A stretch of DNA of 33,153 nt, from NCBI GenBank assembly GCA_031082125.1, contig JAVHLM010000048.1, positions 4,653 through 37,805 of the forward strand, given 5' to 3'. Source of the stretch: Candidatus Eremiobacterota bacterium. Lineage in GTDB: Bacteria; Vulcanimicrobiota; CADAWZ01; Ess09-12. A model generated the notes under the pieces. That model saw only the letters and a list, made by a program, of their open reading frames with translations, was not told the DNA's origin and made no database searches. Shown in pieces: positions 1-33,153 of this stretch. The stretch's first letter is position 1, and each line of letters opens with the position of its first letter. Made by a program: the position numbers and the translations under genes.

Positions 1-304
1 CACCGGGACCCATCATCCCGCCGCCCTGGCCGCCGGGACCCATCATTCCGCCGCCCTGGCCGCCCTGGCCGCCGGGACCCATCATTCCGCCGCCCTGGCC
101 GCCGGGACCCATCATTCCGCCGCCGCCCTGGCCGCCCTGGCCACCGGGACCCATCATCCCGCCGCCCTGGCCGCCCTGGCCGCCGGGACCGTACTGGTTC
201 TGGTCATTCTGGGCCATAAGGCTTGACGAGAGGCTTGAAAGGGAGAGGGCGATGACAAGCACGGTGATGGTGAGAATAAAGACGTTTTTTGCCGTGAGTT
301 TCAT
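1..304 (-). CDS. Secreted Gly/Met/Gln-rich repeat protein (C-terminus outside window)
   Basis: Partial gene whose 3' end lies beyond the window start. About 101 codons are visible. Residues 1-31 form a typical signal peptide: MKLTAK, then a hydrophobic stretch, ending SSSLMA before Gln. After a short linker (QNDQNQY) the chain becomes a low-complexity repeat of GPGGQGG and GGGMM blocks in units of about 9-13 residues. It starts one base after the TAA of the upstream minus-strand gene, and its ribosome site (GGGGAGGTG) lies inside that gene's end, so the two are probably translationally coupled. I do not recognise a family. Composition suggests a disordered, exported and perhaps surface or metal-interacting protein, but that is inference. 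The DNA repeats are near-identical, so copy number may vary between strains or be mis-assembled. Confidence 0.7.
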   Translation of the reverse strand, partial: MKLTAKNVFILTITVLVIALSLSSLSSSLMAQNDQNQYGPGGQGGQGGGMMGPGGQGGQGGGGMMGPGGQGGGMMGPGGQGGQGGGMMGPGGQGGGMMGPG

Positions 305-9961: not shown

Positions 9962-10360
9962 ATGAACATCGAAGCTCATCTTGAATCCCTGAGAGAAGCA
10001 TTCTCAACGATAGATCTCTGCGTTGATAAAGGAGCAGAAAACCACCAGCGCGCTATAGGCTTTCTCACCTCCCTCGGCGCGGCGGAAATGCTTGAACTTT
10101 ACCTCCATAAGAGCAGGCTCCTCCATGTGAGCGCGCGCGTTCACCATGAATGGCTGAAGTCAAAAAAGCGGCTCGCTGAAAAGATCCCGCAGGATTTTCC
10201 CCGGAAGGCGGAGATTCTTGAGCTCGTCTATAACATTGAGAAGAACCGCAATGATTTCTGCTATGGCAAGAAAGTGGAGGCTTCGCGCCTGAGAGATCAG
10301 CTTGAGCAGTTCAACGCCCTTAAGGAGCTTTTCAGGGAGGTGGGGCTTGATGAGATATAG
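9962..10360 (+). CDS. Small helical partner of a nucleotidyltransferase (HEPN-like, uncertain)
   Basis: 132 residues, almost entirely alpha-helical by composition, with ribosome site AGAGGAAAGG. It overlaps the start of the downstream nucleotidyltransferase by 11 bp, the usual arrangement of two-gene HEPN/MNT-type modules. Near residue 95 it reads EKNRNDFCYGKK, which lines up with the RN..xH region of HEPN ribonucleases, but the His is replaced. If it is a HEPN protein, the canonical RX4-6H nuclease motif is missing. It could instead be a substrate-binding helical protein of the HI0074 type. The tandem operator upstream suggests the pair controls its own expression. Confidence 0.55.
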   Translation: MNIEAHLESLREAFSTIDLCVDKGAENHQRAIGFLTSLGAAEMLELYLHKSRLLHVSARVHHEWLKSKKRLAEKIPQDFPRKAEILELVYNIEKNRNDFCYGKKVEASRLRDQLEQFNALKELFREVGLDEI

Positions 10361-10973
10361 CAGCGCAGTTCCCTATGCCATGGATTTTGTGTCCTTTGTG
10401 CTTGAGCACCTGGAGCCGGAGCGCATCGAGGCCATAAGAGCGGTGATTCTTTTCGGATCGGGCGCGAGAGGGGAGCTCAGGAAAAAGAGCGATATTGATA
10501 TCTTTTTTGAGGCCTCCGGCGAGCTGTCTGCCCTGGAGAGTGAGATTGAGCGGTATGCCGAGGACTTCTATGCATCGGTAAAATACCGCGATTACTGGAA
10601 GCTCAAAGGCTCTACTCAACACTTCAGCTGCCATGTGGGAAACGCCGATGTCTGGAAAAGCCTCTACCCTGCCCTTGTGGCTGACGGCATCGTGCTCTAT
10701 GGCAAGTATGCCTCTTCCGATGCGCAGGGGAAGACCGGGGTGCTTTTCTTCTGGGACACTGCGCCCACCTATAACAAGCGCATCAATCTATTCAGGACTC
10801 TTTACGGCTATAGGGCCCGTGGGAAAACCTATCCCGGCCTGCTCGGGAAGGCGGGAGGCGAGAAGCTCACCAGAGGGTGTATTCTCGTCCCCCTGGAGTC
10901 GCACAAGATCATCGACGAGTTTTTCAAGAAGCTTGGCGTGGCGGCAAAGAAGCTCTTTGCCGCTTTCTATTGA
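10350..10973 (+). CDS. MNT-type nucleotidyltransferase
   Basis: 207 residues from the ATG at 10350 (ribosome site GGGAGGTGG), overlapping the end of the upstream gene by 11 bp. The nucleotidyltransferase signature is complete: FGSGARGELRKKSDIDIF, with G36-S37 and the metal-binding D48 and D50. The C-terminal ~100 residues (KYPGLL-type region YPGLLGKAGGEKL and the basic stretch RGCILVPLESHK) extend beyond minimal MNT proteins and are probably a helical domain of this subfamily. Known MNT partners AMPylate or otherwise modify a HEPN toxin or a tRNA. Which of the two proteins is toxin and which antitoxin cannot be told from sequence here. Confidence 0.75.
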   Translation: MRYSSAVPYAMDFVSFVLEHLEPERIEAIRAVILFGSGARGELRKKSDIDIFFEASGELSALESEIERYAEDFYASVKYRDYWKLKGSTQHFSCHVGNADVWKSLYPALVADGIVLYGKYASSDAQGKTGVLFFWDTAPTYNKRINLFRTLYGYRARGKTYPGLLGKAGGEKLTRGCILVPLESHKIIDEFFKKLGVAAKKLFAAFY

Positions 10974-21835: not shown

Positions 21836-21885
21836 AGGGGCAGGTTTCAGGCGACCGGGGTTAATGGGTCAGCTGCTTCATGGGG

Positions 21886-22664
21886 TGACCAATTAGAAGG
21901 AAGGCCGGGGTAATAGGGTTTTTTGCAGTTAAACAGGTCACCTGATGGGTCAGTGAATCGGTCAGGTGACCTATTGAGAGGAACGCGGTGGTTATCGCGT
22001 TTTTTTCTTTTTAGTAGGTCAGTCACTAGGTCACTTTTTGGTCACCTTGATCAACGCATGACCTAGTGGGTGTTCAGATCGGTCATCTGGCGGCAGGGGG
22101 GTGACCTATTGGAATGGAAGGCGTGGTGATGAGGTTTTTTGCACTTTACTGGGTCACTTGATCGGTCATCTGGCAGGGGGGTGACCTATTGAAAAGGATC
22201 CGGTGGTGGTGGGGTTTTTTGTAGTCTATTCGGTCAGGTTGATTGGTCGCTGTTTGGTCACCCTGTCAGGGTATGACCTATTGAGGTGTTCTGATCGGTC
22301 ATCTGGCAGGGGGGTGACCTATTGGAATGGAAGGCGTGATGATGAGGTTTCTTGTCGTTTACCAGGTCACCTGATGGGTCCGGCGATCGGGATGGTGACC
22401 TATTGAAAAGAACGCGGTGGTTATGAGGTTTTTATCGGTTTGATAGGTCCGTCAATTGGTCATCACTCGGTCAGTCCTTCAGCGCATGACCTAGTGACCT
22501 ATTGGAAAGGGTCTGGCGGCCGGGGGGGTGACCCATTGGAAAGAATGCCGGCGCGCCGAGATTTTTTGTGGTTTAATAGGTCAGTGAATAGGTCAGGTGA
22601 CAGGAGAGCTGACCTATTGAAAAAAATGCTATGGTTATGAGGTTTTTATCGGTTTAGTAGGTCA
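21886..22664 (+). repeat. Array 1: eight 55-bp units in a ~214-bp higher-order repeat
   Basis: Eight units of exactly 55 bp each begin TGACC(T)ATT(G) and end GGTCA (GGTCC once): 21886-21940, 21967-22021, 22102-22156, 22182-22236, 22315-22369, 22396-22450, 22529-22583, 22610-22664. The gaps alternate 26, 80, 25, 78, 26, 78, 26 bp, so alternate units start 213-216 bp apart. Each unit has a T-run at about positions 33-39. The long gaps carry two further GGTCA words at 11-12 bp spacing and an inverted TGACC. No open frame of note. The array fills the gap between the sugar aminotransferase and a promoter for an excisionase-like gene. Confidence 0.9.
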
Positions 22665-22746
22665 GGCAATGGGTCATCAACAGGTCACCCCATGAGGATC
22701 TGACAGAAAGGAGAGCCGGGCACTTTTTGCGGCTTTATGCAGCTTA

Positions 22747-22776
22747 TTGACACTTAATGCTTTATTTTGATATTAT
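22747..22776 (+). promoter_or_regulatory. Promoter for the excisionase-like gene
   Basis: TTGACA (22747-22752), an 18-bp AT-rich spacer and TATTAT (22771-22776). It lies 82 bp after the last unit of array 1 and 31 bp before the GTG start. Confidence 0.75.
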
Positions 22777-22807: not shown

Positions 22808-23014
22808 GTGGAAATAAAAGAAACTGAAGTCTATACTATGGATGAAGCTGCCAAATTGCTGAAAATAAGCAAAGCTACTATACAAAGGAGAATACAGAGC
22901 GGATCGCTGCATTCATTGAAAACCGGAAGAATCAGGAGAATCAGAGGTAAAGATCTTATCGCGTTCATAGAGAATGCTGTTGAGATGGGAACGAACAAAA
23001 GGAGCGGATATTGA
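22808..23014 (+). CDS. Small helix-turn-helix protein, excisionase/MerR-like
   Basis: 68 residues from a GTG with GGAGG eight bases upstream. The sequence VYTMDEAAKLLKISKATIQRRIQSG is the winged-helix HTH of the excisionase (HTH_17) family, continuing to RIRRIRGKDLIAFIENA. Its codon use is much AT-richer than the polysaccharide genes upstream. Proteins of this kind act as recombination directionality factors or as small repressors. It is the first gene after array 1 and has its own strong promoter, so it may bind the array or act with the tyrosine recombinase at 24151. Those links are inferred from position only. Confidence 0.75.
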   Translation: MEIKETEVYTMDEAAKLLKISKATIQRRIQSGSLHSLKTGRIRRIRGKDLIAFIENAVEMGTNKRSGY

Positions 23015-23523
23015 GGGGTTGTTGCCCATAAGGCAGAAGAACGCCTGTGGGTGGCAATAAATGAATAAAGTCACTTGCTGGGCAGGCGACTTTACTCAGA
23101 AGATCTCATAATTTAACTGGCACTTAAATTAAAAAAGCCTTATGGGAAAAAGTCAACATCGCTTTGCCTTAGAAGGTTTTTTTATGAAAAAAACCGTGAG
23201 AACAGAATAGACTTTCTCTTCGCCCAGACGACAGAGGAGTGGAAAAAGATGGCGCCCCCTACAGAGAAGGAACGCATAAAGGAAGGAGCACGGAGAGAGG
23301 TGCTTTCCGAGAACCCCGGTATAGGAGAGAGGCTTCTGAGGGTGCCCATTCAGTTGAGGGAGAATAAGATAATTGCAGAAGAATTAGAATGTCTTGTGAA
23401 GGATCGGGGGAGTTGATGGAATAGCTGATGTGATGCTGCCCGGCGTGTACTACGAGTATTACAGGGCGGTGCGGTTGCTGAATATAGTAATACAATGTAT
23501 TTGTCCGTGTAATAAGGAGCATT
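23015..23523. other. Mostly non-coding spacer with gene remnants
   Basis: This 509-bp spacer is AT-rich on the left. It holds an imperfect hairpin (TAAAGTC at 23066-23072 with GACTTTA at 23088-23094) with no U-run, one small open frame described separately (23249-23416), and a second short frame (about 23433-23565) without start support. It looks like decayed coding sequence. Confidence 0.4.
23249..23416 (+). CDS. Small hypothetical protein, possibly a remnant
   Basis: 55 residues starting MAPPTEKERIKEGARREV and ending in VKDRGS. GAGGAG lies about nine bases upstream of the ATG. The frame stays open for about 50 codons before the ATG (from 23112) with protein-like composition, which suggests that this is the tail of a formerly longer gene. 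Charged and helical; no recognised domain. It precedes the ribbon-helix-helix gene by about 107 bp. Confidence 0.35.
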   Translation: MAPPTEKERIKEGARREVLSENPGIGERLLRVPIQLRENKIIAEELECLVKDRGS

Positions 23524-24150: not shown

Positions 24151-24903
24151 ATGACAGGAGAGGGGCGGCTTGTGAAGGGTCAGGTGACGGATATGGCGGG
24201 GAAAAAGGTGGGGACCCAGGTCCCCAGGCGGAAGGAAGAGACTGATGAGAGGCCGGGGCGCTACCGGAGCGCCCTGGAGGAGATACGGCATGAATTGCGG
24301 GAGCTTTGGGAAGGTCCGCCCTATGAGCGAGGTGACAAGCTTCCAGCGACTCTTTCACGGGAGGAGTGCCGGCAACTGATGACGGCCTATACGAAGGGGA
24401 AGTGGGCTTTCAGGAATAATTTGATAAGCCGGGTTCTTTATGCGACGGGACTCCGGGGTGAGGAGCTCGAAAACCTGAAGGTGTGCGATGTGAACTATGA
24501 CCAGGGGACGATCTTCGTGAGGTCGGGGAAAGGTGACAAGGATCGGTATGTGTGTTGCGATGGGGAGACCTTTGCGTTGATCAGGAAGTGGGGCGAGGAG
24601 CAGAAGAAGGGTCTTGAGGATGCGGTGATAGGGCTCACGGTAAGGCAGATCAGGAGAATCGTCGAGGAGGCTGGCGAGCTCACCGGGATTGCGAAGAAGT
24701 ACGAGGCGATGGGGCGGGTGTTCTCGTCACACAGCCTGCGACACGCCTTCGCGACGCACTGCTATGAGAACGGGATGAGGACGCTTACGCTGAAAAAGAT
24801 GATGGGGCATGAGTTCCTCGCGACGACGGAGGTATATCTATATACGTCGATGCGGTACGAGGTGGAGGAGTTCAAGAGGGTGGGGCCGCTGGGGAGGGAA
24901 TGA
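24151..24903 (+). CDS. Tyrosine recombinase lacking most of the core-binding domain
   Basis: 250 residues. The catalytic domain is complete: R102 (TGLRGEEL), K127 (SGKGDKDR), H194 and R197 (HSLRHAF), H220 (MMGHE) and the nucleophile Y229 (TTEVYLYTS). Only about 65 residues precede the catalytic domain, mostly charged and unlike the usual four-helix SAM-like core-binding domain, so the protein is either an unusually short integrase or truncated at its 5' end. The ATG at 24151 has no strong ribosome site; an alternative ATG at 24193 is in frame. It follows the ribbon-helix-helix gene and is a plausible mobility enzyme for the surrounding accessory region. Confidence 0.85.
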   Translation: MTGEGRLVKGQVTDMAGKKVGTQVPRRKEETDERPGRYRSALEEIRHELRELWEGPPYERGDKLPATLSREECRQLMTAYTKGKWAFRNNLISRVLYATGLRGEELENLKVCDVNYDQGTIFVRSGKGDKDRYVCCDGETFALIRKWGEEQKKGLEDAVIGLTVRQIRRIVEEAGELTGIAKKYEAMGRVFSSHSLRHAFATHCYENGMRTLTLKKMMGHEFLATTEVYLYTSMRYEVEEFKRVGPLGRE

Positions 24904-28046: not shown

Positions 28047-28058
28047 GTGGTGGGCGGT

Positions 28059-28373
28059 ATGGATGTCATAAGAGGAGTGCTTGTTGAGGAATTGGAGAAC
28101 TCCCTCAGAATCAGAGAGCGATATCTTGAGAGTCTGCGAGCGCTCCCCAGGGGAAGCCTGCGCAAAAAGCACATCAATGGGCACGATTACTACTATCTGG
28201 CCTTTCGAGAGGGGCGGAAGGTGAAGTATTCATACCTTGGGAAACTCTCTGAAAGCCGCCTGAGAGAGTATGAAGAGGGGCGCAGAAAAAGGGATGAGCA
28301 GAAAAAGGCCGTCAAGAAGCTTGATCAGCAGATAAGATATCTGAGGAAGGCCATCAATGTCAGAGCAGATTGA
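28059..28373 (+). CDS. Small basic helical protein, partner of nucleotidyltransferase
   Basis: 104 residues from the ATG at 28059; a GTG at 28047, touching the operator arm, would add four residues. After a helical N-terminus it has ALPRGSLRKKHINGHDYYYLAFREGRKVKYSYLGKL, a small beta-hairpin pattern also seen in short proteins that read RGSL..k.i.G..YYYL, then a charged helix. The stop overlaps the downstream nucleotidyltransferase by 17 bp, so the two are translated together. It is the obvious candidate for antitoxin and operator-binding protein, although no standard DNA-binding motif is evident. Family name not known to me. Confidence 0.6.
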   Translation: MDVIRGVLVEELENSLRIRERYLESLRALPRGSLRKKHINGHDYYYLAFREGRKVKYSYLGKLSESRLREYEEGRRKRDEQKKAVKKLDQQIRYLRKAINVRAD

Positions 28374-29052
28374 GCTTGTATACAAAATGTTGAAGTCGCT
28401 GCAAGAAGCGGGCATTCTCGGGAATATGATAATCGTGGGGAGCTGGTGCATACATTTCTACAGGCATCACTACAGAGAATCCGAGGTGCTGCCTCCCCTC
28501 AGGACAAGGGACATTGAATTTGACGTGAGCTTTCTCAGGCATGCACGGAACAAGGTCAATGTCATCGAGCTGCTTGAGAAATTGGGCTTTCTCGTGGACT
28601 TTAAAGGGAGCGGATTCACCAATCTTGAGAGCCCTGAGCTCATTGTGGAGTTTCTTGTTCCCGAAAAGGGAAAGGGGAGCTCGGCCCCCCGTGTCATTTC
28701 TGGCTTCGGTATCAATGCCCAGCCTATAAGGTTTCTGAACTTCCTTGAAGAAAGGTTGATAGACGTCAGCTACAGGGATCTTGTGGTCAAAATACCCCAC
28801 CCCGCCTGGTTCGCGATACATAAGCTCATCATATCCAGAAGAAGGCCGGAGCACCAGGCGACAAAAAAGAGCAACGATATTACTCAGGCACTGGCAGTCT
28901 GGGATATGGTCGTCGCCATGGGAGAAAAGGGAGAACTCAGAGAGGTGCTGAGCTGGATCCCCAAGGGATGGCTGAAGCTGGTAAAGGAGTCGCTAGTGCT
29001 TGCTCAGCAGGCAGAGAGACTGGAAGATATGCAGGTCCAGTCACCACGATAG
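28357..29052 (+). CDS. Nucleotidyltransferase-fold protein (GSU2403/AbiEii-like)
   Basis: 231 residues. The nucleotidyltransferase pattern is IIVGSWCIHFYRHHY with G28-S29, and RTRDIEFDVSF with D52 and E54/D56 as the metal-binding acids. A region of strands and helices follows, including FVIP-type LIVEFLVPEKGKG, and a helical C-terminus. This resembles the GSU2403-like and AbiEii-type nucleotidyltransferase families used as toxins in two-gene modules. The gene overlaps the small upstream protein and shares its strong, operator-controlled promoter. Which tRNA or protein it modifies, if any, cannot be told. The missing second Asp of DxD (here D-I-E-F-D) leaves activity uncertain. Confidence 0.65.
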   Translation: MSEQIELVYKMLKSLQEAGILGNMIIVGSWCIHFYRHHYRESEVLPPLRTRDIEFDVSFLRHARNKVNVIELLEKLGFLVDFKGSGFTNLESPELIVEFLVPEKGKGSSAPRVISGFGINAQPIRFLNFLEERLIDVSYRDLVVKIPHPAWFAIHKLIISRRRPEHQATKKSNDITQALAVWDMVVAMGEKGELREVLSWIPKGWLKLVKESLVLAQQAERLEDMQVQSPR

Positions 29053-29403: not shown

Positions 29404-29701
29404 AGCCCTCCCTGAGAGCTGGTTCCCCCTTCAGCATTAATGCCCCTCTACCTTAAAGGGGGATGTGCCAAGGAGGGGGTAGTCTGAAGGGGGAAACTGC
29501 GGCAGGGGGGGCGGCAGAGCCTCTATCAGGGCTTACGTTACGCCGAACAGCGAGGCAAAGGCCGGCCCTCAACATGACGCCGAGTACCCAGCCCAACATA
29601 ACCGGCCGACGAGCCTACCCCCGGCAGAGCACCGGGAGCTCAGAGGAAAGGGGGCGGGCGAGGAGGCCGCCTAACAGAGACACGTAAAGGCTTTGTTGTC
29701 G

Positions 29702-29818
29702 CCCTGGTGGCAGTGTGAACAAGCAAGGGGCGAGGCACCGTGACAAAGAGCTTGTTCAAGTCCTGTTGATAAACCTCACCGTCTTCGGTTTATCAACAGG
29801 ACGGCACTGTCACCAGGG
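29702..29818 (+). ncRNA. Candidate structured RNA: three-way junction of 14, 9 and 16 bp
   Basis: P1 pairs 29702-29715 (CCCTGGTGGCAGTG) with 29805-29818 (CACTGTCACCAGGG). Its only non-Watson-Crick pair is G29710 with T29810, a G-U wobble if the plus strand is transcribed and a C-A mismatch otherwise. P2 pairs 29716-29724 with 29750-29758 (TGAACAAGC/GCTTGTTCA, 25-nt loop). P3 pairs 29760-29775 with 29787-29802 (GTCCTGTTGATAAACC and its exact complement, 11-nt loop). Only A29759 and G29803-G29804 are unpaired at the junction. No family recognised, and no reverse transcriptase or nuclease gene is adjacent. It may instead act as DNA (cruciform, replication or recombination site). Confidence 0.55.
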
Positions 29819-30023
29819 GAGGGAGCGTGGGGAAGTGATCCGGGGAGTGGATCATTAGGGTGAACATGGAGGACATTTTCAGAGCATGGCAGGGGGTCTG
29901 GAGAGATTTTTCATGGCAGGGGCGACCTTCACCCCGGGACAAGGGAAAATAGGGCGAAATTTGAAGGGTCTTCGGAAATCCCTTGGCTATGGGCACCGAT
30001 GGGGCAATGAGGGGGCGGTGAGC

Positions 30024-30476
30024 CTATTTTTCATCCGGCTTGATGAGGGCGATGAATTCCTCCGGTGTCACTATTTTTGTACCATAGAACGTGGGAAAAG
30101 GGAAGTGTTTTTTATTGCCCGTGACAAGGAAATGCGCTTTCCCCTCGAAAGCACATTCCAGGAATTTGTTATCATCAGGGTCAGGGCTTATCACAAAGGA
30201 GTGACCAGGTGAGAGCACTATGGCGGTGTCAAGGACAACCTTAAGTGCGGCGTCGATTTTTTCATTGCTGAGCCGGAACTTGGCTCTACGGATAACCTCA
30301 GAATATTCGAGAAAAATCTCTCGTGAGATGAGATGCTCAAAGGTGCCGGGACATGCCATCAAAAACAGAATTTTTCCCGGGAGGTTATCAGGATTCAAAG
30401 TGCCGGAGACAAACACATTGGTGTCAATGACTACTCTTGGCGCGCTTTTCTTTTCTGTATGCTTTGATTTCGGCAT
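30024..30476 (-). CDS. PIN-domain toxin
   Basis: 150 residues; the ATG at 30476 has GGAGGAG five bases upstream, lying inside the antitoxin gene, which it overlaps by 53 bp. The PIN fold is shown by VVIDTNVFVSG (D18), E57 in IFLEYSEVI, DPDDNKFLECA (D99, D101, D102) and FLVTGNKKHF. This is the pattern of PIN_3-type ribonuclease toxins, in which Asn can replace the last acidic residue. It would cleave RNA when released from its antitoxin. The upstream minus-strand gene encodes a Phd/YefM-like antitoxin, and the pair has its own promoter and operator. Confidence 0.85.
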   Translation of the reverse strand: MPKSKHTEKKSAPRVVIDTNVFVSGTLNPDNLPGKILFLMACPGTFEHLISREIFLEYSEVIRRAKFRLSNEKIDAALKVVLDTAIVLSPGHSFVISPDPDDNKFLECAFEGKAHFLVTGNKKHFPFPTFYGTKIVTPEEFIALIKPDEK

Positions 30477-30720
30477 CTATCTCCTCCGCGGCAAGCCTGT
30501 CGGTTCCTCTTTCTTTCGCCTCTTCCCAGAGATCCTCCAGCGCATTGTAAAGCTTGGCTGCTTTTATGGCTTTTTGGACCTTTTCGATGTTTTCATCGGA
30601 AACAGGAACAAGAAGGGCAAATGGCTTACCTCTTCTCGTGACGACGATTTCTTCATCTTCAGCCTCTTTCATGACTTTTGAGGCATTGACCCTGAAGTCC
30701 CTGACGGTGGCATATTTCAT
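30424..30720 (-). CDS. Phd/YefM-like antitoxin
   Basis: 98 residues from the ATG at 30720, with AAGGAG nine bases upstream. The N-terminus MKYATVRDFRVNASKVMKEA followed by EEIVVTRRGKPFALLVPV is the DNA-binding and dimerisation domain of Phd/YefM antitoxins. The C-terminal half (EKVQKAIKAAKLYNALEDLWEEAKERG) is a charged helix that would wrap around the PIN toxin. It overlaps the toxin gene by 53 bp. Phd-type proteins repress their own operon; a near-palindromic operator lies between the -10 box and the start. Confidence 0.85.
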   Translation of the reverse strand: MKYATVRDFRVNASKVMKEAEDEEIVVTRRGKPFALLVPVSDENIEKVQKAIKAAKLYNALEDLWEEAKERGTDRLAAEEIDAEIKAYRKEKRAKSSH

Positions 30721-30734
30721 AAAATCCATCTCCT

Positions 30735-30786
30735 TGTAGGTCAATTATCCTACATCCATTATAGATGAGAACTACTGAAGAGTCAA
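30735..30786 (-). promoter_or_regulatory. Promoter and operator of the antitoxin-toxin operon
   Basis: On the minus strand TTGACT (30786-30781), a 17-bp spacer and TATAAT (30763-30758). Just downstream TGTAGG-N8-CCTACA (30735-30754) forms a 20-bp site with an AATT centre, 16 of 20 positions symmetric. This is the expected position for antitoxin autorepression. Confidence 0.8.
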
Positions 30787-30807: not shown

Positions 30808-30852
30808 GCATAAACTTTCACAGATATCATTCACCCGTTACAGAGTTTATGC
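30808..30852. other. 9-bp inverted repeat between resolvase and antitoxin operon
   Basis: GCATAAACT (30808-30816) and AGTTTATGC (30844-30852) are exact complements with a 27-nt loop. The right arm includes the resolvase TAA stop. There is no U-run, so its role as a terminator is weak; it may be a barrier hairpin. Confidence 0.4.
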
Positions 30853-31404
30853 TCTCTCCGAAGCGGGGCACCACCGGTAAAGGGTGGGAACAGAGACGCC
30901 GAGATTCTGAGCAATCTCCCGGGGCGGCATACCCTCGCTCATGAGCTTTTTCGCCGCTTCCACCTTGCCTGCGGTCATAAGCCGCTTTCTCCCCCCCACA
31001 CGGCCTCTCTTCTTTGCTGCGGCAAGACCTGCTCTGGTGCGCTCTATCAAAAGCTCACGCTCCATCTGGGCAAGAGAGGCCATCACGTGAAAAAAGAATC
31101 TTCCCGCAGGCGTGGTGGTGTCGATGCCGTCGGTGACGCTGTGGAAGTTCACCCCTTCTTCCTGAAGTCTCCCTATGAGCTCGATGAGGCCCTTGACGCT
31201 TCGGCCCAGGCGGTCGAGCTTCCAGATCACCAGGGTATCACGGGTACGGAGATGCTGAAGGGCCTCGGCAAGACCAGGCCGATCCTGTTTTGTCCCCGAC
31301 AGCTTGTCTTTGAAGATTTTTTTGCACCCGGCCTTGCGCAAGGCGTCGAGCTGCAGGTCCAGGCTCTGTTCATCCGAGGAGACGCGGGCATATCCTATGA
31401 GCAT
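30847..31404 (-). CDS. Serine recombinase (resolvase/invertase family)
   Basis: 185 residues from the ATG at 31404 (AAAGGAGG, 7-bp spacing). MLIGYARVSSDEQSLDLQ carries the nucleophile Ser9 and Arg7; LDRLGRS carries the active-site arginines 65 and 68; a long E helix (AQMERELLIERTRAGLAAAKKRG) and a C-terminal HTH (MPPREIAQNLGVSVPTLYRW) follow. Size and order match small resolvases and DNA invertases such as Tn3 resolvase or Hin. Its promoter is boxed between the arms of a 13-bp inverted repeat at 31462-31526, so it is likely self-regulated. It may resolve or mobilise the accessory region. Confidence 0.9.
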   Translation of the reverse strand: MLIGYARVSSDEQSLDLQLDALRKAGCKKIFKDKLSGTKQDRPGLAEALQHLRTRDTLVIWKLDRLGRSVKGLIELIGRLQEEGVNFHSVTDGIDTTTPAGRFFFHVMASLAQMERELLIERTRAGLAAAKKRGRVGGRKRLMTAGKVEAAKKLMSEGMPPREIAQNLGVSVPTLYRWCPASERA

Positions 31405-31461
31405 CTTTTGTCCTCCTTTGTGGCGGGGGGGAATGAAATGAAGATCCGGATCTCGGATCAC

Positions 31462-31526
31462 ATTCTCGAAACTCGCCTCTATAGTACCATATTGAGAGAG
31501 TTATTTCAAGAAAGAGTTTCGAGAAT
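31462..31526 (-). promoter_or_regulatory. Resolvase promoter enclosed by a 13-bp inverted repeat
   Basis: ATTCTCGAAACTC (31462-31474) and its exact complement GAGTTTCGAGAAT (31514-31526) are separated by 39 bp. Within this gap, on the minus strand, TTGAAA (31509-31504), a 17-bp spacer and TACTAT (31486-31481) form a promoter toward the resolvase gene. Related motifs TTCTCAAAACC (31553-31563) and GGTTTGTGAGAA (31585-31596) form a second, imperfect inverted pair upstream. Together they could be a res-type site. Confidence 0.65.
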
Positions 31527-31697
31527 TTTGAGGGGCTTGAAATGGGAGGGCTTTCTCAAAACCGGGAGGGTTATCGAAAACGAGGGTTTGTGAGAAGACA
31601 TATGGAGGCGGAGAAGGCCTGCTAAAATGGCATTGGGGCAATGCTGCGACAGCAGGAGGCAGCTTGTTTCCTATAGGCCCAGTTCGAGGGGAACCTG

Positions 31698-31862: not shown

Positions 31863-32213
31863 TGACCTATTGAAAAAGATGGCGTGGTGATAGAGTTTTT
31901 TGCATTTTACCAGGTCATCCAATAGGTCAGCGGATCGGGAAGGTGACCTATTGAAAAGGATGCGGTGGTGATGAGGTTTTTCTTGATTTAATAGGTCAGG
32001 CGATGGGTCATTGTGTGGTCAACCCTGTCAGCCTATGACCTGTTGAGGCGCTCAGAGAGGTCACTTGGTAAGGGGGGTGACCTATTGAAAGGAAAGCCGT
32101 GGTGATAAGGGTTTTTAGGGTTTACTGGGTCACCCGATAGGTCAGGCGATAAGAAAGGTGACCTATTGAAAAATATGGTGCGGTGATAAGGTTTTTCTCG
32201 GTTTACCAGGTCA
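31863..32213 (+). repeat. Array 2: four more 55-bp units of the same repeat
   Basis: Units at 31863-31917, 31944-31998, 32078-32132 and 32159-32213, each exactly 55 bp with TGACCTATTG at the start and GGTCA at the end, and gaps of 26, 79 and 26 bp. Alternate units start 215 bp apart, the same higher-order period as array 1. The orientation is the same as in array 1. A partial further unit starts at 32250 (TGACCTATTGA). It lies in front of a promoter region and a small DNA-binding protein gene, as array 1 does. Confidence 0.9.
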
Positions 32214-32336
32214 GGTGCGGGATCATCATGTGGTCACCCCGTCAGCCTATGACCTATTGAATTTTACCATACTTCTGAAAAATTTGCAGGGCGCAAGGTG
32301 ACACATAAAGAAACAGCGCGTTGAAAGCCTGAATAA

Positions 32337-32401: not shown

Positions 32402-32830
32402 ATGGCATCACACATAAAAGATCACCGGAAGGAATGCCTGTGTCCCATATGCAGAAGCGCCCGGGGGGAAACGCGCAGAAACAAGAAAGCCTTTACCGCG
32501 AGCATCAACATCGCGCTTCTCGAGGAGCTGAGAGAATGGGCCCGGGAAAAGCATACCACATTGACAGGCGCCCTCGAGGAAGCGATAAGGTTATTGATTA
32601 AAAAGAAGGAGCATTCCAGGGAAAAGGGAGGGCAGCTTATCGGAAATGACCCGATATCCCCTGAGCTGGCAGTAAAGGTTGACAGGCTCCGTAAAAACAA
32701 GAAAAATACAGGACACTCCATTTCTTCTGAGCCGGCAAGAGGTGTTTCACCGCCAGTTAAGGATTCAGGCAGTGTGAAAGAAGAGCACCGTGCGGGAGCT
32801 CGTGCTCAAGGCCGTGGAGGAACACATTGA
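32402..32830 (+). CDS. Ribbon-helix-helix-like protein with Cys motif, possibly frameshifted at its C-terminus
   Basis: 142 residues, ribosome site AAGGATGAG. Residues 7-22 hold H-x4-C-x-C-x2-C (HRKECLCPIC), a possible zinc knuckle. Residues 30-70 resemble a ribbon-helix-helix domain (FTASINIALLEELREWAREKHTTLTGALEEAIRLLIKK). The C-terminal 60 residues are low-complexity and polar. In another frame the same DNA near the end reads STVRELVLKAVEEHIEKHKEK and stops at 32847-32849, which looks like a real helix, so a frameshift or overlapping remnant is possible. It follows array 2 and is a candidate for binding it. Confidence 0.6.
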   Translation: MASHIKDHRKECLCPICRSARGETRRNKKAFTASINIALLEELREWAREKHTTLTGALEEAIRLLIKKKEHSREKGGQLIGNDPISPELAVKVDRLRKNKKNTGHSISSEPARGVSPPVKDSGSVKEEHRAGARAQGRGGTH

Positions 32831-33153
32831 GAAGCACAAGGAAAAGTAAGGCAGATTCACGTGGTATGAGCCGGGGGGAGAAGAGAAATAAAAGGTATTC
32901 ACCGGGGATCAGGAAGTGTTATCCGACGAGTCGAGAGAATAGTTTCTCGCGGGTCGAGGGGGTATTGTGTTCTGAGTGAAGAAAATGCCGTCTCGCGGGT
33001 CGAGAGAGTATTGTGTCCTGAGTGAAGAAAATGCCGTCTCGCGGGTCGAGGGGGTATTGTGTTCTGAGTGAAGAAAATGCCGTCTCGCGGGTCGAGAGAG
33101 TATTGTGTCCTGAGTGAAGAAAATGCCGTCTCGCGGGTCGAGGGGGTATTGTG
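32831..33153. other. Gene-free end of window
   Basis: After the ribbon-helix-helix gene there is no open frame with start support. A degenerate copy of the 46-bp unit (GAGTCGAGAGAATAG near 32930) leads into the tandem repeat that runs to the window end. Confidence 0.5.
32945..33153 (+). repeat. 46-bp tandem repeat, alternating two variants
   Basis: Units at 32945-32990, 32991-33036, 33037-33082, 33083-33128 and a partial 33129-33153, continuing past the window. Each begins TCTCGCGGGTCGAG. Variants alternate: GGGGG...GTGTTC in units 1, 3 and 5, and AGAG...GTGTCC in units 2 and 4, so the true period is 92 bp. The unit is not a multiple of three and frames hit stops, so it is non-coding. No variable spacers, so it is not a CRISPR array. 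Confidence 0.9.

Follow-up and report, generated by a model that had tools for sequence, protein, structure and literature searches.

Two ordered arrays of an 11-bp site as possible segregation sites of a probable plasmid from Candidatus Eremiobacterota

Contig C48 of a Candidatus Eremiobacterota draft genome is 37,805 bp long, and we analysed its positions 4653-37805 (33,153 bp, referred to as the window, whose numbering is used below). It carries two arrays of one asymmetric 11-bp site, TGACCTATTRA, set out in a regular order of orientations and distances. We propose that these arrays are cis-acting sites of plasmid maintenance, most likely centromere-like segregation sites onto which a protein would be loaded, and we give this reading an even chance of being right. 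A role in segregation is put forward with moderate confidence, the identity of the binding protein with weak confidence. The arrays and their 55-bp units are located as follows.

21859 to 22687, + strand: array 1, almost four higher-order copies of 214 bp with about 32 exact GGTCA/TGACC words
21886 to 21940, + strand: unit A1, 55 bp
21967 to 22021, + strand: unit B1, 55 bp
22102 to 22156, + strand: unit A2, 55 bp
22182 to 22236, + strand: unit B2, 55 bp
22315 to 22369, + strand: unit A3, 55 bp
22396 to 22450, + strand: unit B3, 55 bp
22529 to 22583, + strand: unit A4, 55 bp
22610 to 22664, + strand: unit B4, 55 bp
31863 to 32262, + strand: array 2, same layout as array 1, with 55-bp units at 31863, 31944, 32078 and 32159 and 16 exact words

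The initial annotation had read array 1 as eight units of exactly 55 bp, separated by gaps alternating between ~26 and ~79 bp and nested in a 214-bp repeat. This was confirmed: TGACC stands 50 bp from its partner word in 8 of 8 units, the gaps measure 26, 80, 25, 78, 26, 78 and 26 bp, and successive higher-order copies follow each other at distances of 216, 213 and 214 bp. The common unit ends hold for most units only, since six of the eight begin exactly with TGACCTATTG, the units at 21886 and 22529 begin with TGACCAATTA and TGACCCATTG, respectively, and the unit at 22396 terminates in GGTCC instead of GGTCA. The claim that unit length is selected received modest support from the finding of no indel in 12 units, as compared to a length change in 4 of 10 inter-unit gaps (25/26 and 78/79/80 bp). 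Words had been said to recur every 11-12 bp in the long gaps; they do so at 12 and then 11 bp, and are followed by an extra TGACC..23..GGTCA pair. Two features were absent from that annotation, namely one more site just 5' of the array 1 units (21859-21871) and the whole of array 2, which has the orientation of array 1 and again a TGACC-to-partner distance of 50 bp. The two arrays are direct repeats ~10 kb apart. Identity among the units is 62-87%.

When the GGTCA and TGACC words of both orientations were aligned with their flanks, all positional classes (51 sites) yielded the single asymmetric site TGACCTATTRA, of which both arrays together hold about 50 copies. Each 55-bp unit is therefore bounded by a pair of these sites in inverted orientation, and the additional words in the gaps represent more of them. 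Within each 214-bp copy the orientations follow the string > < <, > < < <, > <, and the steps between sites are 50, 12, 19, 50, 12, 11, 19, 23 and 19 bp. The 3' side of the site differs independently from copy to copy. The initial annotation had proposed that a protein recognises the GGTCA words; our analysis supports recognition by a protein, though the recognised element would not be GGTCA alone but the 11-bp site in both orientations, which explains why the 3' bases vary without compensation.

The density of words is not due to chance: array 1 contains 32 words, compared to a mean of 2.7 and a maximum of 10 in 2000 first-order shuffles, and array 2 contains 16, compared to a mean of 1.0 and a maximum of 5 in first-order shuffles. 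Across six 214-bp copies, the word columns are 95.5% identical versus 78.6% elsewhere; when the word mask was shifted circularly, the observed value was not attained in any of 217 positions. The arrays do not code for protein, since no reading frame stays open for more than 77 aa. The unit interiors differ as much within an array as between the two (0.64-0.70), and the words are far better conserved, which suggests that both arrays are old and that selection acting on the sites, not recent duplication, has maintained them.

The arrays are confined to this contig. The pattern TGACCTATTRAA was counted 10 times across the 7.43-Mb genome, each time inside the arrays (0 occurrences for the reversed control pattern), and the arrays are therefore not a host regulon. 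The search of host and related genomes that the initial annotation had called for was carried out with a sequence model of the unit, which recovered its own 12 copies and nothing else among 149 genomes of the phylum (the host and 148 others). No homologous array was found by BLAST among 57 relatives, the exact layout had 0 matches in GTDB contigs, and no PLSDB plasmid matched the array. In viral contigs there was no homologous array and 61 single matches were judged to be chance; a looser word pattern gave 82 matches there, a few of them with real GGTCA clusters in different layouts (L189, L171, L179 and L195, the last with its words inside a coding gene). Two of these viral clusters, at L171 4295-4552 and L179 10735-10940, have 9-12-bp steps and adjoin VapE-like helicase genes, and are possible phage origins. 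A literature search on the exact site word retrieved no relevant paper among those listed.

Several known kinds of repeat were considered and rejected. REP/BIME elements, CRISPR arrays, integron attC sites and transposon ends have similar inverted-repeat ends, but the present units lie on one contig, with non-identical interiors and unrelated flanks. A REP/BIME identity, which the initial annotation had named as what would overturn its reading, or that of another dispersed repeat does not apply, as 12 of 12 units lie in the two arrays and no dispersed copies were found. A CRISPR array was discarded in view of the 62-87% identity of the units and of "spacers" that are conserved parts of the higher-order repeat. 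Elsewhere in the genome, a CRISPR-like array with unusually divergent repeats and 72-73-bp spacing lies on contig C1 (L136 2320-3240), and 52-bp tandem repeats are found at the end of contig C7 (L130 10007-10183), upstream of a second tyrosine recombinase gene. The 24 densest other repeat regions checked in ~728 kb of the host genome all fell within long open frames. The window also contains, at 29687-30016, a 330-bp element with four copies in the genome (the others at L088 1-332, L223 320-656 and on L265); on either strand it is predicted to fold into a branched hairpin of high stability (z about -6), and its arms differ between copies in a seemingly compensatory manner.

The contig is probably a plasmid of ~37.8 kb. 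The two termini share 31 bp that fall within a single iteron array, unique to this contig in the genome, and judging from the assembly the molecule is very probably circular. The array concerned is the following.

32945 to 33153, + strand: 46-bp tandem repeat including a 22-bp oriV iteron (TATTGTGTTCTGAGTGAAG..), resuming at the other contig end (C48 1-226, on L084)

Elsewhere in the genome this repeat matches a single place, the opening 160 bp of the contig, where it runs in the same direction. The iterons lie directly upstream of repA (L084 348-1709, starting at contig position 348), which encodes a 453-aa protein with a Pfam RPA domain (E 3e-18). Its relatives, encoded by plasmids of Planctomycetota, Deinococcus and Thermus, bear the annotation replication initiator protein A, and the same 22-bp iterons are found upstream of repA in three Planctomycetota plasmid examples; a replication initiator with upstream iterons is arranged here as on named plasmids. 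An early reading of the region as an integrated island was dropped in view of the contig-end overlap and RepA; between the left edge of array 1 and the right end of the contig there were no direct att-type repeats of 11 bp or more. If the contig is circular, the order is resolvase, array 2, RHH (ribbon-helix-helix) gene 32402, oriV iterons, repA, polysaccharide gene cluster, array 1 and HTH_17 gene. Three likely toxin-antitoxin or nucleotidyltransferase gene pairs (window 9962-10973, 28047-29052 and 30024-30744) are consistent with a plasmid. At window 1-190 and L084 3887-4543 lies a gene for a glycine-rich protein with GGMMGPGGQGG repeats.

Seven RepA relatives were examined. In four of them repA adjoins genes for partition, with the annotation ParA or ParA-ParB, and one of these four has a clear parS-like row of palindromes. 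On C48, array 2 and the RHH gene stand where these relatives have their partition genes. No ParA-type ATPase was found on C48 (a PF13614 search matched contigs C50, C3 and C22 only), no credible Walker A motif was present among the ORFs of the contig, and ParM, TubZ and ParB were absent from the ORFs scanned against Pfam. This is therefore not a complete classical partition system. The genes and signals near the arrays are listed below.

22747 to 22776, + strand: promoter-like TTGACA-18-TATTAT (consensus match only), between array 1 and the HTH_17 gene
22808 to 23014, + strand: HTH_17/excisionase-family DNA-binding protein, 68 aa, candidate binder
23195 to 23416, + strand: remnant of a replication-associated gene, C-terminal part of a 399-aa protein that is intact on contig C61
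23524 to 24030, + strand: ribbon-helix-helix protein with a coiled-coil-like tail, 168 aa, candidate binder
24151 to 24903, + strand: tyrosine recombinase, 250 aa, with no recognisable N-terminal core-binding domain
30847 to 31461, - strand: serine resolvase/invertase, with a 93% identical copy on contig C61 and an upstream region conserved to 31596
32402 to 32830, + strand: CPxCR and CopG-like ribbon-helix-helix protein, encoded between array 2 and the iterons of the origin; leading candidate for the binder

Both arrays stop 118-140 bp short of a gene for a small DNA-binding protein and lie 60-80 bp upstream of promoter-like sites without overlapping any; the one at 22747 is 60 bp past the last site of array 1. 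The profile of the RHH family of 32402 matches CopG (PDB 1b01, E 6e-4) and SvtR. This protein, to which a Pfam scan gave no family name, is one of at least 7 family members in the genome with an N-terminal CPxCR motif, and no comparable array lies beside its paralogs. The surroundings of array 1 are partly decayed: the remnant at 23195 is 51% identical over 63 aa (E 1.5e-11) to the 399-aa protein of C61, a contig that carries an intact relative of the module downstream of array 1 as well as the resolvase copy, without GGTCA arrays. Inside its 399-aa gene, C61 contains 33-bp inverted-repeat tandem repeats (L088 4670-4828), which recall origins inside initiator genes. Upstream of the resolvase, at 31462-31596, an inverted repeat (TTCTCGAAACTC / GAGTTTCGAGAA) that is kept on C61 is a likely resolution site. 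PIN/Phd toxin-antitoxin genes are found within the same 10 kb as the resolvase.

The iteron- or centromere-like nature that the initial annotation had suggested agrees strongly with a plasmid contig that has a RepA gene, iterons at its origin and, adjacent to array 2, a gene for an RHH protein. We envisage that a small plasmid-encoded DNA-binding protein would load cooperatively on all TGACCTATTRA sites of both arrays, the most likely candidate being the CopG-like RHH protein 32402, or else the RHH protein 23524 or the HTH_17 protein 22808. The sites spaced by 11-12 bp within a cluster would face roughly one side of the helix, and with inverted sites 50 or 19 bp apart, the DNA could be wrapped, looped or bridged by the protein bound to it. 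The nucleoprotein complex so formed may retain or place the plasmid copies so that they are inherited, and it may control the two downstream genes as well. Segregation is favoured among the maintenance functions because of the number and regularity of the sites, their position by the origin and the RHH gene, and the lack of promoter overlap; the resolvase and toxin-antitoxin genes fit a maintenance region. Counted against it are the lack of a ParA among the genes of the contig, the different families of the genes that follow the two arrays (HTH_17 versus RHH), the promoter-like sites that are not covered, the partial decay around array 1, and the lack of any homologous array in our searches.

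Regulation of the two downstream genes would be an equally simple second role and is the strongest rival to segregation. We considered the possibility that the arrays have no part in segregation and are operators or enhancers through which the plasmid's own RHH or HTH protein autoregulates DNA-binding genes or copy number. A gene for such a protein does follow each array, and the RHH family matches the copy-control repressor CopG. Yet ~32 and 16 sites far exceed the need of a simple operator, the promoter-like sites are not overlapped, and repression needs no regularity across 800 bp, so that we regard this explanation as somewhat unlikely.

We find it distinctly unlikely that the arrays are replication-type iterons, belonging as origin or copy-control (incompatibility) sites to another replication module that is related to the one on C61 and has decayed. 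Array 1 abuts a module whose intact relative has the 399-aa replication-like gene, of which only the end is left here, and GGTCA clusters stand beside VapE/primase-type genes in some viral contigs. However, the C61 module has no such array and holds its repeats inside its own gene, the plasmid already has its own RepA with different iterons, and the viral clusters are analogous only. It is more improbable still that the arrays serve as accessory recombination sites, in multimer resolution or integration, for the resolvase 30847 or the tyrosine recombinase 24151. Each recombinase is near an array and the arrays are direct repeats, but the conservation of the resolvase and its upstream region on C61 ends at 31596, before array 2, C61 is devoid of arrays, and no comparable array was seen with relatives of the tyrosine recombinase. 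The resolution and att regions known so far use few sites. Finally, the idea that the + strand is transcribed into a structured RNA or a tandem series of terminators is hardly credible: some units fold well (21967, z -7.6) and carry a T-run, but this strong fold is not common to the others, only one of eight units has a clear terminator, there is no Rfam match at the gathering score, and in 12 units not one pair was changed on both sides and pairing was below the shuffled mean, which led us to reject RNA and upholds the preference of the initial annotation for protein recognition over RNA pairing.

Segregation sites of other plasmids resemble the arrays in part. In the delta-omega system (type Ib) of pSM19035, an RHH protein binds several separate arrays of one short site, parS1-3, which lie upstream of promoters for plasmid maintenance (PMC5016525). 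Separate arrays with direct and inverted sites are also seen here, where the RHH binder is only a candidate. Unlike in the present case, the pSM19035 heptads overlap promoters and a ParA-type ATPase, delta, is present; the sites on C48 have 11 bp and follow one another at 11-50 bp within a higher-order pattern of 214 bp, and a search for an ATPase found none. The omega heptads are contiguous. In TP228, the RHH protein ParG binds an upstream centromere, parH, composed of spaced repeats in direct and inverted orientation (type Ib; PMC5016525); the style of repeats is alike, but there is a ParF ATPase and no 55-bp or 214-bp order has been described. As to the traits of a type Ib locus, C48 presents an array of short direct and inverted sites and an adjoining RHH gene (32402, the candidate binder), but not the ParA-type ATPase. 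The stbDR region of R388 has two repeat sets with a 9-bp repeat and a 2-bp spacer (11-bp period), and the DNA-binding protein StbA together with the repeats provides stability without the ATPase StbB (PMC3098194). C48 has steps of 11-12 bp and two sets of sites, but together with inverted sites and a 214-bp pattern; stbDR is made of ten direct repeats of another site (TTGCATCAT) around one promoter, without a higher-order repeat. The plasmid proteins considered on C48 are of the RHH and HTH_17 families. Iteron origins of RPA/TrfA/Rep3-type plasmids are represented on the same contig by the 22-bp repeats upstream of RepA, from which the GGTCA arrays differ by their sequence, their inverted members and their not being head-to-tail.

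An array with exactly this layout was not found described in the literature, as the initial annotation had presumed when it knew of no such family, but the broad kind, plasmid iteron or centromere arrays, is recognisable; the apparently new part is the layout of ~50 oriented sites in three modules per 214 bp on a replicon where no motor gene was found. That this amounts to a new class of segregation site, a hierarchical centromere with ~50 oriented 11-bp sites, a three-module 214-bp code, a CPxCR-RHH protein and no dedicated ATPase, is a tentative and rather doubtful suggestion. The analysis also indicates that a draft-genome contig of 37.8 kb with genes for a polysaccharide cluster is likely to be a plasmid. 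How low-copy plasmids manage without a ParA-type motor is a long-standing question, of which StbA of R388 is a well-studied case. The array provides a small site amenable to tests, in which orientation and spacing follow a fixed code; three proteins are candidates for its binder, and the RepA origin next to it is known.
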